A stretch of 64,000 nt of DNA, from contig JAIYDW010000100.1 of NCBI GenBank assembly GCA_027487315.1, forward strand, positions 1 to 64,000, in the 5' to 3' direction. The notes below the pieces were generated by a model that did no database searches, was not told the origin of the DNA, and worked only from the letters and a program-made list of their open reading frames with translations. Source of the stretch: Verrucomicrobiaceae bacterium (GTDB lineage: Bacteria; Verrucomicrobiota; Verrucomicrobiia; Verrucomicrobiales; Verrucomicrobiaceae). This document shows, piece after piece, positions 54,119-58,303 of the stretch. Numbering within the stretch: the first letter of the stretch is position 1; each line of letters opens with the position of its first letter. A program made the translations under genes and the position numbers.

Positions 54119-54346
54119 ATGAGCACCGCCACGGTTGACGATCTCCACACCCACTTCGACGAGCTGTCCGCCAAGCTCGCCGCTGGAGAGATCATCCACC
54201 TCTGGCAAAACGGTAAACCCTGGGCCAAACTCGTCCCCGAAACCGCCCCAACCAGCCCGACTCTCCTCGGTGCCGCCCAGGGATTGGCCCAATTTGAGGA
54301 AGATTTTGACGAACCCTTGGACCTCGCTTGGGACGCCTGCAAGTGA
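54119..54346 (+). CDS. Phd-like antitoxin, second toxin-antitoxin module
   Basis: 75 residues. MSTATVDDLHTHFDELSAKLAAGEIIHLWQNGKPWAKLVP is a Phd/YefM-type N-terminal DNA-binding fold, and the acidic end (FEEDFDEPLDLAWDACK) would bind the toxin. Its stop overlaps the GTG start of the PIN-domain gene. It differs in sequence from the antitoxin at 7760-8020, so the two modules are unrelated copies of the same type. Confidence 0.82.
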   Translation: MSTATVDDLHTHFDELSAKLAAGEIIHLWQNGKPWAKLVPETAPTSPTLLGAAQGLAQFEEDFDEPLDLAWDACK

Positions 54347-54753
54347 GCCTCCTCCTCGACACCAACGCTTGGCTCTACTCAGTGGATCGCCCCAGTGCTC
54401 TCCCTGACGCCATTCGCGACGCCATCTCGACTCACAACGTCGTCTACCTCAGCTCCATCAGCCTCTGGGAGATCGCCAAAAAACATCAGCTGGGCAAACT
54501 GCGCCTCTCCGTGCCCATTGCCGATTGGATCCAACACGCCCTGCCATCCTCGATCGAGATCCTCCCCCTCTCTCCCGAAATCATCCTAGAGGCCACTTCC
54601 TTGCCTGACTTCCCGAATCGTGATCCCGCGGATGAACTCATCGTCGCGACAGCACGAATCCAAGGTTTGACATTGCTTACCTGTGACAAACTGCTACGCG
54701 ATTACCCGCACGCTCCCATCACCTACTTCAGGCCAAAAGACCGCCTCGCGTGA
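54343..54753 (+). CDS. VapC-type PIN-domain toxin, second module
   Basis: 136 residues starting at GTG 54343, which overlaps the antitoxin stop (GTGA). LLLDTNAWLYSV gives the first Asp, ISLWEIAKKHQLGKL a Glu, and NRDPADELIVATARIQGLTLLTCDKLL the remaining acidic residues of the PIN domain. It belongs to the subgroup with the conserved SLWEIAIKxxLGKL segment. Its stop overlaps a possible GTG start of the downstream Sua5/TsaC gene. The expected target is structured RNA. Confidence 0.88.
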   Translation: MSLLLDTNAWLYSVDRPSALPDAIRDAISTHNVVYLSSISLWEIAKKHQLGKLRLSVPIADWIQHALPSSIEILPLSPEIILEATSLPDFPNRDPADELIVATARIQGLTLLTCDKLLRDYPHAPITYFRPKDRLA

Positions 54754-54767
54754 ACCCCTCATTACCC

Positions 54768-55805
54768 ATGGAAACCCGCGTCATCACCCCCGAATTCGTC
54801 CCCCACCCGGACACCAAAGAAGCCGTCTCCGAATCCATCCGGCTCCTCCAGGCAGGTGAAGTCGTCGCCCTGCCCACCGAAACCGTCTACGGCCTCGCCG
54901 CCGACGCCCTCAACCCAACCGCCGTCGCCAAAATCTTCGAAGCCAAAGAACGCCCCACCTTCGATCCCCTCATCGTCCATCTCCCGCACAAAAAAGACCT
55001 CGCCATGGTCGCTGACGTCCCCGCTGACATCAACGCCGTCCTCCAAAAAATCACGGACCGCTTCTGGCCCGGTCCCCTCACCATCATCCTCCCCAAAAAA
55101 GACATCGTCCCCGACCTCGTCACCGCCGGCCTCCCCACCGTCGCCGTCCGCGTCAGCGCCAATTCCCTCTTCAAAAAAGTCGCCCAAGGCCTCGGACGCC
55201 CCATCGCCGCCCCCAGCGCCAACCGCTTCGGCAGCATCAGCCCCACCTCCGCCGCCGCCGTCCAGGCCGAACTCGACGGCCGCATCCCCCTCATCATCGA
55301 CGCCGGTGCCACCATGCACGGCCTCGAATCCACCATCATCAAAATCGAACCCGGCTCCCCCAAAGCCACCATCACCATCCTCCGCCCCGGACCCGTCACC
55401 GCCGAAGACCTCAAACTCTACGGCAAGGTGAAGACCCTCACCCGCAGTGTCGTCGACGAAGCCACCGAAGCCCCCGGCCAACTCGCCTCCCACTACGCCC
55501 CCAAGACCCCCCTCCGCCTCTTCGAATCTCCCTCCGACTTCATCCCGGATCCCAACAAACGCTACGCCCTCATGAGCTACCGTGGCGAAGCCAAAGACGG
55601 CTACATCAACCTCACCGACTGGGTCGAAGTCATGATGCTCAGCCCCGGCAAAGGCAAACTCCCCGAAGCCGCCGTCCGCTTCTTCTACATCCTCCGCGCC
55701 CTCGATAGCCTCGGCGTCGACGAAATCATCGCCGAACCCCTCGCCGAACACGGCGTCGGCGTCGCCATGATGGACCGCCTCCGCCGCGCCGCCGTGAAGT
55801 TTTAA
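54768..55805 (+). CDS. sua5: L-threonylcarbamoyladenylate synthase, Sua5 (two-domain) type
   Basis: About 345 residues: the YrdC/TsaC domain (VVALPTETVYGLAADALNPTAVAKIFEAKERP... WPGPLTIIL) plus the C-terminal Sua5 domain (PGQLASHYAPKTPLRLF). It makes threonylcarbamoyl-AMP from threonine, bicarbonate and ATP, the first step of t6A37 tRNA modification. The ATG at 54768 opens METRVITPEF; GTG at 54750 would overlap the vapC stop. It is thus placed in the same transcription unit as the toxin-antitoxin pair. Confidence 0.92.
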   Translation: METRVITPEFVPHPDTKEAVSESIRLLQAGEVVALPTETVYGLAADALNPTAVAKIFEAKERPTFDPLIVHLPHKKDLAMVADVPADINAVLQKITDRFWPGPLTIILPKKDIVPDLVTAGLPTVAVRVSANSLFKKVAQGLGRPIAAPSANRFGSISPTSAAAVQAELDGRIPLIIDAGATMHGLESTIIKIEPGSPKATITILRPGPVTAEDLKLYGKVKTLTRSVVDEATEAPGQLASHYAPKTPLRLFESPSDFIPDPNKRYALMSYRGEAKDGYINLTDWVEVMMLSPGKGKLPEAAVRFFYILRALDSLGVDEIIAEPLAEHGVGVAMMDRLRRAAVKF

Positions 55806-55812
55806 ACTCACA

Positions 55813-56565
55813 GTGATTGCCGAACTCCCCCTTGAGTCGATGCCTAAACACTCCAGGAACGCTCACCAAACCAACCCGAAGGTGGGGCAAGCATCTTGCT
55901 TGCCCTCCCAAACCGCCTCCACCAGCATCACGTCACCCTCGTTCTACGACAACCTCCACTACTTCGACCCGCGCGCCAATTTCGAGAATGAAATCCGGAA
56001 TCTCCCCCATTGGCGACAGCCCGGCGTGACTTACTTTGTCACCTTCCGTCTCGCCGACGCTTTGCCTCAGGCAAAACTCCACCAATGGCGCGAGGAACGC
56101 CGAGCCTTCCTCGAAGAGAACCCCGAACCCTGGTCAGAAATGACACGAGCCGAATGGTTTTCCCTCTTTCCAGATCGTTTACAGACGTGGCTAGACAAGG
56201 GTTATGGCGAGTGCTGGTTGCAACAACCCGAGCTCGGTAAAGTCGTGGACCAAGCTTTGCGCTACTTTGATGGGGATCGCTACGACCTGCTCGCGCATGT
56301 CGTCATGCCCAACCACGTTCATGCGCTTCTCACCCCCAGAGCAGACCATCGCCTGGATAGGATCCTGCACTCCTGGAAATCCTTCACCGCCAAAGCCATC
56401 AATCAAACGCTGGATCGAACGGGTGAAGTCTGGCAACACGAAAGCTACGACCACATTCTCCGCACTCCAGATGCCGCCTGGGCGGTAGCACGCTACATCA
56501 AAGAGAATCCCGCCAAAGCCGGAATTCAAACACCCTTCATCTCAAGCCGTGTCCCCAAAACCTGA
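55813..56565 (+). CDS. REP-associated tyrosine transposase (RAYT, Y1/IS200-like)
   Basis: 250 residues in the longest frame. The HUH nuclease motif is HVH in MPNHVHALL (about 168-170) and the catalytic tyrosine is Tyr212 in ESYDHILR, with NLPHWRQPGVTYFVTFRLADALPQ as the family N-terminus. RAYTs are single-copy domesticated IS200-like enzymes that act on REP palindromes. A REP-like palindrome lies inside the first 30 codons and a second just downstream, so the true start is uncertain. No intact terminal ends of an insertion sequence are seen. Confidence 0.88.
   Translation: MIAELPLESMPKHSRNAHQTNPKVGQASCLPSQTASTSITSPSFYDNLHYFDPRANFENEIRNLPHWRQPGVTYFVTFRLADALPQAKLHQWREERRAFLEENPEPWSEMTRAEWFSLFPDRLQTWLDKGYGECWLQQPELGKVVDQALRYFDGDRYDLLAHVVMPNHVHALLTPRADHRLDRILHSWKSFTAKAINQTLDRTGEVWQHESYDHILRTPDAAWAVARYIKENPAKAGIQTPFISSRVPKT
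55879..55904 (+). repeat. REP-like palindrome, copy 1
   Basis: A 26-bp sequence containing GGCAAGCA-TCT-TGCTTGCC, an 8-bp hairpin preceded at its foot by GTGG, the tetranucleotide type recognised by RAYT enzymes. It is repeated without change at 56573-56598. It lies in the 5' part of the RAYT gene, where its translation is KVGQASCLP. Confidence 0.9.
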
Positions 56566-58303
56566 TCCCGACAAGGTGGGGCAAGCATCTTGCTTGCCAC
56601 CCGAAGAACCCTCCCAAAGTGCAACTCCAACGGTTGCACCACTTCCCCACACCCCCGAATCCGGACCCCGCGCCAAAACCACCGGCCTCGTCTCCATCGC
56701 CATCCTCTGCAGCCGCATCCTCGGCCTCATCCGCGACCAGGTCCTCACCGGCATGTTCGGCACCTTCTTCAACGGCCTCTTCACCGCCGCCTTCCGCACC
56801 CCCAACATGCTGCGCGACCTCTTCGCCGAGGGCGCCCTCTCCACCGCCTTCGTCACCACCTTCTCCAAAAAGATGAAGACCGAGAGCGACGAAGCCGCCT
56901 GGATCCTCGCGCGCAAGATGCTCACCCTCTCCCTCTGCTTCATGACCATCGTCGCCGCCGCCGGCGTCGCCCTCGCCCCCTACATCGTCCGCCTCCTCAA
57001 CGTCGGCTGGGTCATGAAACAGGCCGAAGGCAATCTCCTCCCCGAAGGCTGGACCCTCGAACGCGCCACCGAACTCACCATCCACCTCTCCCAGGTGATG
57101 TATCCCTTCATCGCCATCGTCTCCATCACTGCCCTCGTCATGGGCATGCTCAACTCCAAAAAAGTCTTCTTCATCCCCGCCGTCGCCTCCGCCTTCTTCA
57201 ACCTCGGCTGCATCTTCGGCGGCCTGCTCGCCGCCTGGATCATCGACCCCATCTTTCGCGAAACCGGAAAAGTCACCGAAACCAGCCTCACCGGATTCGC
57301 CATCGGCACCCTCATCGGCGGCATATTGCAGCTCGCCGTACAAATCCCTTCCCTCCGCAAAGTCGGCTTCACATTCGGCCTCGACTTCAAATGGAAAGAC
57401 CAGGGCGTCCGCGATGTCCTCCACCTCATGTGGCCCTCCGTCATCGCCGCCAGCGGTACCCAGGTCGCCGTCTTCCTCAACTCCATCTTTGCCTCCTTCA
57501 CCCCAGGCCAAGGCAGCAACCTCAGTTGGCTCGGCATCGCCCAGAGATTGCAGCAACTCCCCCTAGGCCTCTTCGGCGTCGCCGTCGCCACCGTCACCCT
57601 CCCCATGCTGTCTCGCCTCGCCACCGATGGCATGAGCCCCGCCTTCCGCACCGCCCTCTCGAAAGGCCTCCGCCTCGTCCTCTTCCTCACCGTCCCCTCC
57701 GCCGTCGGCATGGCCGTGCTCGGCCACGAGATTGTGAGCCTCATCTTCGAACGCGGCAAATTCACCGCCCACGATGTCACTCAAACCGTCGGCCCCCTTC
57801 AAGCCGCCGCCTTCGGCCTCGTCTTCTACGCCTGCATCAAAGTCGTCCAACCCGCCTTCTACACCATTGGCCGCCGCTTCATCCCAATGACCGTCAGCCT
57901 CGGCGTCATCGTCTTCACCGCCACCATGAACTCCATCACGGTCTTTGTCCTCGAATGGGGTCACACCGCCCTCGCCTGGGCCACCGCCCTCGGCCTCATG
58001 CTGAACTTCACGGCGCTCTACCTCTGCATGCGAAAATTCGCCAACGGCATGGAAACCCGCTCCCTCGCCCGCGCCCTCATCAAACTCGCCCTCGCCGTCA
58101 CCACCATGGCCGCCATCTGCCTCGCCGCCAAAGCCACCCTCCTCGCCCCCTGGTCCACCTACAGCCTCTCATCGAAGCTCCTCACCCTCGGCACCACCAT
58201 CACCGCCGCCGCCATCGCCTACTTCACCGCCACCCACCTCCTCAAAGTCGAAGAAGCCCGCGAATTCCTCAGCATCCTCACCCGCCGCTTGGGTAAAAAA
58301 TAA
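56549..58303 (+). CDS. murJ: Lipid II flippase MurJ
   Basis: About 584 residues from GTG 56549, with an extended unconserved N-terminus. The recognisable protein begins near TTGLVSIAILCSRILGLIRDQVLTGMFG (residue about 48), the first of about 14 membrane helices of the MVF/MurJ family. FRTPNMLRDLFAEGALSTAFV and the later AWATALGLMLNFTALYL are typical. It moves lipid II across the membrane for peptidoglycan synthesis. The first codons overlap the RAYT stop, and a REP palindrome translates in-frame as KVGQASCLP, so translation may really start later (GTG 56576 or TTG 56594). Confidence 0.93.
   Translation: MSPKPDPDKVGQASCLPPEEPSQSATPTVAPLPHTPESGPRAKTTGLVSIAILCSRILGLIRDQVLTGMFGTFFNGLFTAAFRTPNMLRDLFAEGALSTAFVTTFSKKMKTESDEAAWILARKMLTLSLCFMTIVAAAGVALAPYIVRLLNVGWVMKQAEGNLLPEGWTLERATELTIHLSQVMYPFIAIVSITALVMGMLNSKKVFFIPAVASAFFNLGCIFGGLLAAWIIDPIFRETGKVTETSLTGFAIGTLIGGILQLAVQIPSLRKVGFTFGLDFKWKDQGVRDVLHLMWPSVIAASGTQVAVFLNSIFASFTPGQGSNLSWLGIAQRLQQLPLGLFGVAVATVTLPMLSRLATDGMSPAFRTALSKGLRLVLFLTVPSAVGMAVLGHEIVSLIFERGKFTAHDVTQTVGPLQAAAFGLVFYACIKVVQPAFYTIGRRFIPMTVSLGVIVFTATMNSITVFVLEWGHTALAWATALGLMLNFTALYLCMRKFANGMETRSLARALIKLALAVTTMAAICLAAKATLLAPWSTYSLSSKLLTLGTTITAAAIAYFTATHLLKVEEAREFLSILTRRLGKK
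56573..56602 (+). repeat. REP-like palindrome, copy 2
   Basis: Identical for 26 bases to copy 1 and extended to CCACCC, so GGT at the foot can pair with ACC on the far side of the hairpin. It lies directly after the RAYT stop and inside the 5' end of the murJ frame. Together the two copies bracket the transposase gene. Confidence 0.9.

Follow-up and report, generated by a model that had tools for sequence, protein, structure and literature searches.

Background

The closest described systems are REPtrons, in which a RAYT transposase (TnpA-REP) stands beside its own REP hairpins. In the accessible parts of the published accounts, TnpA-REP acts on the single-stranded REP and not on its complement, and the foot of the hairpin picks the cut site; changing the foot of a Marinomonas REP to GTGG moved the cut to CC (PMC8266576). 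RAYTs of gammaproteobacteria were described in the available text of Nunvar 2010 as always flanked by inverted REPs. REPs lying in frame inside tnpA-REP genes have been published for one subclass, and the TAG of the foot is reported to serve as a stop codon (PMC3733652), again as far as the accessible text goes. The literature available to us treats as open both the way in which REPs are spread by RAYTs and the acquisition of a new REP class at a RAYT locus.

The RAYT gene and its flanking hairpins

The locus lies in a window of 64,000 nucleotides from a Verrucomicrobiaceae genome (G000, a MAG of 5.87 Mb in 256 contigs), where a RAYT frame separates sua5 from murJ (Table 1). An earlier note had proposed that this frame is bracketed by two identical 26-bp REPs in direct orientation, one in its 5′ part and one after its stop, each with GTGG at the foot of an 8-bp hairpin. 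A scan of the window confirmed the arrangement, coordinates included: the 26-mer (AAGGTGGGGCAAGCATCTTGCTTGCC) was found on the + strand at both places, with the GTGG foot directly 5′ of a perfect 8-bp stem (GGCAAGCA / TGCTTGCC) and a 3-nt loop, TCT. A search of the window with a 17-base core (up to 3 mismatches) returned 4 matches, which were both elements read on either strand; 0.25 were expected, and 0 of 100 shuffled windows reached 4. The second copy also falls within the murJ open frame, as an in-frame part of the MurJ N-terminal extension, and the murJ start is a GTG overlapping the final RAYT codons.

Table 1. Coordinates of features at the RAYT locus (positions within the window)
Feature	Position	Strand	Remarks
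sua5 (L-threonylcarbamoyladenylate synthase), left flank	54750..55805	+	Pfam Sua5_yciO_yrdC 1.8e-50, Sua5_C 6.7e-23; TIGR00057 over cut-off
Block replaced in G001 (REP-RAYT-REP cassette)	55806..56648	.	sua5 stop to murJ N-terminus
RAYT (TnpA-REP) open frame, 250 aa	55813..56565	+	Y1_Tnp, NF047646 and PDB 4er8 matches
REP copy 1	55879..55904	+	within RAYT frame; reads KVGQASCLP if the frame starts upstream
HUH motif codons (His-Val-His)	56314..56322	+	invariant in five-row alignment; aligns to 4er8
Putative catalytic Tyr, with Asn four residues on (YIKEN)	56494..56508	+	invariant Y219, N223
murJ (lipid II flippase)	56549..58303	+	MurJ 3.6e-100; TIGR01695 over cut-off
REP copy 2	56573..56598	+	7 nt past RAYT stop codon

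The frame matched Pfam Y1_Tnp (PF01797) at 27.6 bits (cut-off 23), so a Y1 HUH domain is present. Against the curated NCBIfam model NF047646 (REP_Tyr_transpos) it scored 75.3 bits, under the cut-off of 80, and its identity as a RAYT therefore rests on other evidence. TnpA-REP (4er8_A) was the sole PDB match of a five-row RAYT alignment (E 3.6e-4), HVH and Y219/N223 (Tyr, then Asn at +4) were invariant across all 5 rows, and on both sides of the gene stand GT(A/G)G hairpins of a kind that recurs across the genome. A catalytic role for the Tyr and Asn is putative and was assigned by comparison with the published account, in its accessible parts, of the E. coli enzyme. The host codon model failed to call the frame as coding, so RAYT codon use is unlike that of its neighbours. 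Downstream of the nearest REP, neither G000 nor G001 has an in-frame ATG, GTG or TTG ahead of the conserved FY(D/E)xLxYF motif, and RAYT translation should thus begin at or before that REP.

Two observations were made on the surroundings. Ahead of sua5 (window 54119-54753) lie a DUF2281-like gene (below cut-off) and a PIN domain gene, likely a toxin-antitoxin pair. G000 and its relative G003 are ~98% identical through murJ and unrelated directly past it (window 58300 onward against L098).

The direct orientation of both REPs departs from the inverted rule. In a survey of 111 RAYT loci, mostly from Verrucomicrobiota and Planctomycetota, flanking repeats were direct at 32, inverted at 17, ambiguous at 5 and absent at 48, with too little flank at 9; the window itself scored "none" because its first REP lies within the frame. 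With 32 direct against 17 inverted, the inverted rule is not general and does not exclude a RAYT, and direct bracketing is frequent among these phyla. In G000 itself, each of two additional RAYT-like genes lies between direct repeats of its own that differ from the window REP. The earlier note's "textbook enzyme-substrate pair" accordingly stood in part. As judged from sequence, the pairing of the window RAYT with its cognate REP is well supported, by the Y1_Tnp and 4er8 matches, by further REP copies and by a REP type that tracks the RAYT allele (below); the textbook arrangement did not hold, as the REPs are direct rather than inverted.

REP copies across the genome

The genome-wide count that the earlier note had suggested as a check turned up further copies, the lack of which the note had named as refuting its reading. 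In G000 the 24-mer core has 8 exact copies; allowing up to 3 mismatches brings the count to 39, and the reversed control gives 0. All 8 exact copies were preceded by AAG in the stretches examined, which gives a count of 8 for the 26-mer. A looser REP pattern was matched 67 times in G000, 58 in G001, 43 in G003 and once in G002, and by 0 copies in 40 of 57 genomes (reversed control 0 in each genome). An inverted partner with at most 2 mismatches was looked for within 200 bp of each of 61 REPs, and the inverted two-REP unit of a REPIN was found for 0/61, whereas 25/61 had a direct neighbour within that distance; two imperfect inverted neighbours were noted in G000. The scattered REPs are singles or direct clusters, without the usual inverted pairs.

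Many REPs lie within open frames of conserved genes, among them those for IleRS, PolA, U32 peptidase, UvrA, ArgRS and a FAD-dependent protein. The IleRS gene has two in-frame REP sites (L185:1500 and 2874; L186:1500): the first is occupied in G000 and G003 and REP-free in G001, and at the second G003 and G001 hold different REP types at the same place. A single frame is used by 48 of 77 elements called intragenic by a codon model that sees one strand only. These intragenic, in-frame REPs are of the kind already published for O. terrae and Rickettsia.

Other repeats were seen in passing. Further palindromic units (encoding, for example, ADTPVRP or GAAALPK) occur in frame beside REPs in the same proteins (L020, L024, L180, L220, L223). 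A 134-bp REP-bearing unit is tandemly duplicated in G003 and single copy in G000 (L188:1500-1657 against L011). The complete genome of a relative, G014, has one-orientation REP arrays with ~142-bp spacing, a different organisation (C1, e.g. 1666071-1668302).

That these hairpins are terminators or other common regulatory structures, with no connection to a RAYT, is scarcely credible. In favour of it, many extragenic ones sit at most 60 nt past gene-call ends, as placed by the one-strand gene model. They lack T runs after them, however, their type tracks the RAYT allele, and every other RAYT of G000 has a hairpin of its own.

The sua5-murJ junction in relatives

The earlier note had also recommended comparing the sua5-murJ junction among relatives; the comparison revealed that the cassette had been replaced in G001 and that other relatives have no RAYT at this place. 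From 57 genomes having sua5, 30 sua5 loci were taken, 29 of them besides that of G000. A full RAYT stands between sua5 and murJ in 4/29 relative loci (G001, G003, G029 and G035) and RAYT remnants, by our reading, in 2/29 (G025 and G026). In 13/29 loci, including that of the same-genus G002, murJ adjoins sua5 without a RAYT; another ORF intervenes in 1/29, and no murJ is present in the stretch in 9/29.

Among 80 RAYT loci from named genomes, 9 sit between sua5 and murJ, and the window makes ten. These ten form one clade (SH-aLRT 96), with G001 joined to G000 plus G003 (SH-aLRT 93) and the members from another genus grouped at SH-aLRT 99, in a 106-row tree that was built by a quick method, has nine long end branches and some poorly framed rows, and leaves out row L094. 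In that other genus (the g8 side) RAYT identity (75-92%) parallels Sua5 identity (84-99%). One clade at one site, a RAYT tracking Sua5, and empty sites indicate a RAYT that is old at this junction and has been lost repeatedly, and that was not seen jumping.

The earlier note had pictured the REP-enclosed gene "as if it were itself a mobile unit". An autonomous IS200-like element, bounded by the REPs and transposing whole, could account for identical direct REPs at both edges and for the patchy occupancy of the junction, but it is improbable. All ten occupants belong to one clade at one site, RAYT divergence follows that of Sua5 in the g8-side genomes, and none of the three G000 RAYTs is a recent copy of another. 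The several near-identical copies elsewhere that would mark an IS200/IS605 element were not found among 7 Y1_Tnp matches in G000, where the two other RAYT-like genes are at most ~48% identical to the junction family. Transposition of the gene is unsupported, and we read the RAYT as a long-settled resident of this junction.

Replacement of the cassette in a sister genome

The junction of G001 holds a markedly different allele. Sua5 of G001 and G000 is 99% identical and RAYT 56% identical, and the syntenic G001 RAYT is flanked by a different REP (GTGGGGCAAGCCGCTGGCTTGCC), with the loop GCT in place of TCT, which is what a REP orthoswitch would present; G001 is a MAG, and its cassette is known from one 7.3-kb contig. 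Between G000 and G001, dS was 0.13 for sua5, 0.16 for murJ and 1.58 (saturated) for RAYT, with a RAYT dN/dS of 0.24, whereas between G000 and G003 the values were 0.09, 0.09 and 0.01. In an alignment of G000, G001 and G003, with edges judged by eye, the diverged block spans the sua5 stop to the murJ N-terminus. Because saturated RAYT dS is confined to the cassette, replacement by a long-separated allele is indicated, rather than fast mutation or selection.

An idea taken from Nunvar 2010 is that the G001 gene is the same RAYT under very fast mutation or positive selection, with no replacement; the accessible text reports RAYT amino-acid identity in gammaproteobacteria as lower than that of neighbouring genes. 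This is very improbable here: selection at the protein level would leave dS unraised, yet synonymous sites are saturated (against 0.13 and 0.16 in the neighbours) with dN/dS just 0.24, the change ends at the cassette edges, and local hypermutation would need to have spared the G000-G003 pair.

Alternatively, an ancient tandem pair of RAYTs may have been pared down in both lineages, G001 keeping one member and G000 the other, with no recombination. The placement of both alleles in the same site clade, with G001 sister to G000 plus G003, suits such a history, which we rate as unlikely while granting it more weight than the mutational account. The occupied junctions examined held no double-RAYT locus and no remnant of the other allele, and differential loss needs two precise losses plus loss of both members in G002. 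Judged from these comparisons, a swap by homologous recombination in the flanks is favoured over differential loss of an ancient pair.

Whether G003 had recently received the G000 allele by horizontal transfer was considered and set aside, as the mismatch profile lacked sharp edges and other stretches were equally low; the G000-G003 RAYT pS of 0.014 against 0.084 in the neighbours (Poisson about 3e-4) is a hint only.

REP type and the resident RAYT allele

The REPs scattered in each genome differ in the same sense as the alleles. GTGGGG REPs with ATCTT and CCGCTGG centres were counted at 8:1 in G000, 8:2 in G003 and 1:10 in G001; copies at the RAYT site make up 2/8, 2/8 and 4/10 of the prevailing type, and without them the counts were 6:1, 6:2 and 1:6. 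The first loop base was T or G at 34:13 in G000 and 12:28 in G001 (Fisher p 1e-4), counting GTGG REPs with a stem starting G or T, with 3 other bases set aside and RAYT-site copies dropped so far as the exclusion strings matched them. Both loop types are present in both genomes, and GTGGA REPs are mostly GCT in each (9/12 in G000, 19/23 in G001), so the link between allele and REP is statistical. At the level of sequence comparison, scattered REPs were shown in this sense to follow the resident RAYT allele. The T-to-G change at the first loop base between alleles fits a change in specificity, by analogy with characterised enzymes.

Strand distribution of REPs

REPs were found on the C-rich strand in 59/62 cases in G000 (40 stretches), 68/71 in G001 and 27/27 in G003. 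Of the three G000 exceptions, one was an element that had been read twice, and the other two were the imperfect inverted neighbours. Skew is extreme in this genome, and the + strand of the window has a GC skew of -0.24 to -0.44. Absolute skew was 0.27 to 0.44 in the 40 stretches chosen for their REPs (L305-L344) and 0 to 0.47 in 20 further contigs, mostly picked by number; third-codon G/C skew of C-rich-strand genes was near -0.8, and the rpoB and L2 regions were almost without skew.

On leading strands G and T usually prevail. Here the C-rich strand has an excess of A as well, and rpoB and the L2 gene are carried by the other, not C-rich, strand of their contigs; the C-rich strand is therefore probably the lagging strand, as is suggested by rpoB and L2 gene orientation rather than by a mapped origin. 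Two other guides were tried and dropped. tRNA genes split about evenly between the strands, and G014 did not serve as a replication-strand control, since its ~142-bp tandem REP arrays are not strand-locked as a set and its dnaA is not at a skew switch.

An apparent sense-strand bias of 82:3 at the locus level was also discarded, because the codon model trained on sua5 and murJ saw only C-rich-strand genes; its gene positions and frame counts hold for those genes only, and it was superseded by a two-class model calling genes on both strands. The solid bias is toward the C-rich strand of the chromosome. Of REPs on that strand, 19 lie in C-strand genes and 3 in G-strand genes (p 0.004 against coding length), and the others are intergenic with any gene orientation.

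This gene-level excess, and the position of most other REPs just 3′ of a C-strand gene, would be expected if transcription set the pattern, with REPs entering the exposed sense strand or surviving only there and replication uninvolved. We regard that account as rather doubtful, although it carries more weight than any other alternative raised here. REPs keep to the C-rich strand even between two other-strand genes (4 cases) and antisense within such genes (3 cases).

Proposed mechanism

The locus is probably a resident REPtron, a RAYT long settled between sua5 and murJ with its own REPs around it, subject to allele swap and accompanied by one-strand REPs. From what can be read directly in the DNA (gene, hairpins, synteny, swap, loop shift and strand), we infer the steps of binding, cutting, insertion and recombination. 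By analogy with characterised enzymes, the RAYT would bind single-stranded REP via the GTGG foot and the 3-nt loop, would cut beside it, and would copy or insert single REPs at other chromosomal sites, its own gene remaining in place. A cassette with a foreign allele would be brought in through homologous recombination between flanking sequences, and insertion of new REPs would be confined to one replication strand.

A more specific reading is offered tentatively, as a real possibility short of an expectation: in this genus the dispersing unit may be a single REP rather than an inverted REPIN, placed in one replication strand, and a recombining REP-RAYT-REP cassette may re-type the REP population. 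On the same reading, insertion is probably into the nascent lagging strand or the leading-strand template, the reverse of IS608, which favours the lagging-strand template.

Sister genomes differing by one cassette make cassette exchange a testable answer to the orthoswitch question. The RAYTs of the window and of G001 form a ready allele pair for comparing TCT against GCT loops, and one-strand single REPs in a strongly skewed genome constitute a natural record of which replication strand takes insertions.

Comparison with known systems

The following comparisons draw on the accessible parts of the sources cited. The nearest match is the group 3 REPtron TnpA-Sm of Stenotrophomonas maltophilia (PMC8266576), which like the window has a 23-nt REP with a GT(A/G)G foot, an 8-bp perfect stem and a 3-nt loop. 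Its loop, GCT, is identical to that of G001; its foot is GTAG where the window has GTGG, and TnpA-Sm needs G at loop position 1, whereas the window loop is TCT. E. coli TnpA-REP (PDB 4er8) has the HUH motif and Y-x3-N in common with the window RAYT, the similarity being weak and extending over ~85 positions. In E. coli the REP stem is bulged and the elements come in inverted pairs; those of the window have a perfect stem and are direct.

REPINs (PMC3116915) resemble the present case in that palindromic REPs are scattered over a genome that also encodes a RAYT. They are inverted REP doublets, singlets being called defunct remnants, while here identical singlets and direct clusters dominate. In Opitutus terrae (GTAG REPs) and Rickettsia (RPEs), in-frame palindromes likewise lie within conserved genes, including uvrA, polA and tRNA synthetases (PMC3733652); beyond those cases, the window REPs are also found in the RAYT and MurJ N-termini.

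In the REP orthoswitch (PMC3686654), too, syntenic RAYTs have different REP classes and the old class is left in the genome. Mutation of the flanking REPs was inferred there, with the mechanism unexplained; here dS points to the replacement of gene and REPs together, and cassette exchange offers a concrete mechanism for the published switch. A literature search with little subscription coverage turned up neither a description of one-strand REPs nor dS data in support of an orthoswitch. The REPtron type is known; what appears new, as far as the sequences indicate, is the joint swap of gene and hairpins in a sister species and the near one-strand scatter of the hairpins.
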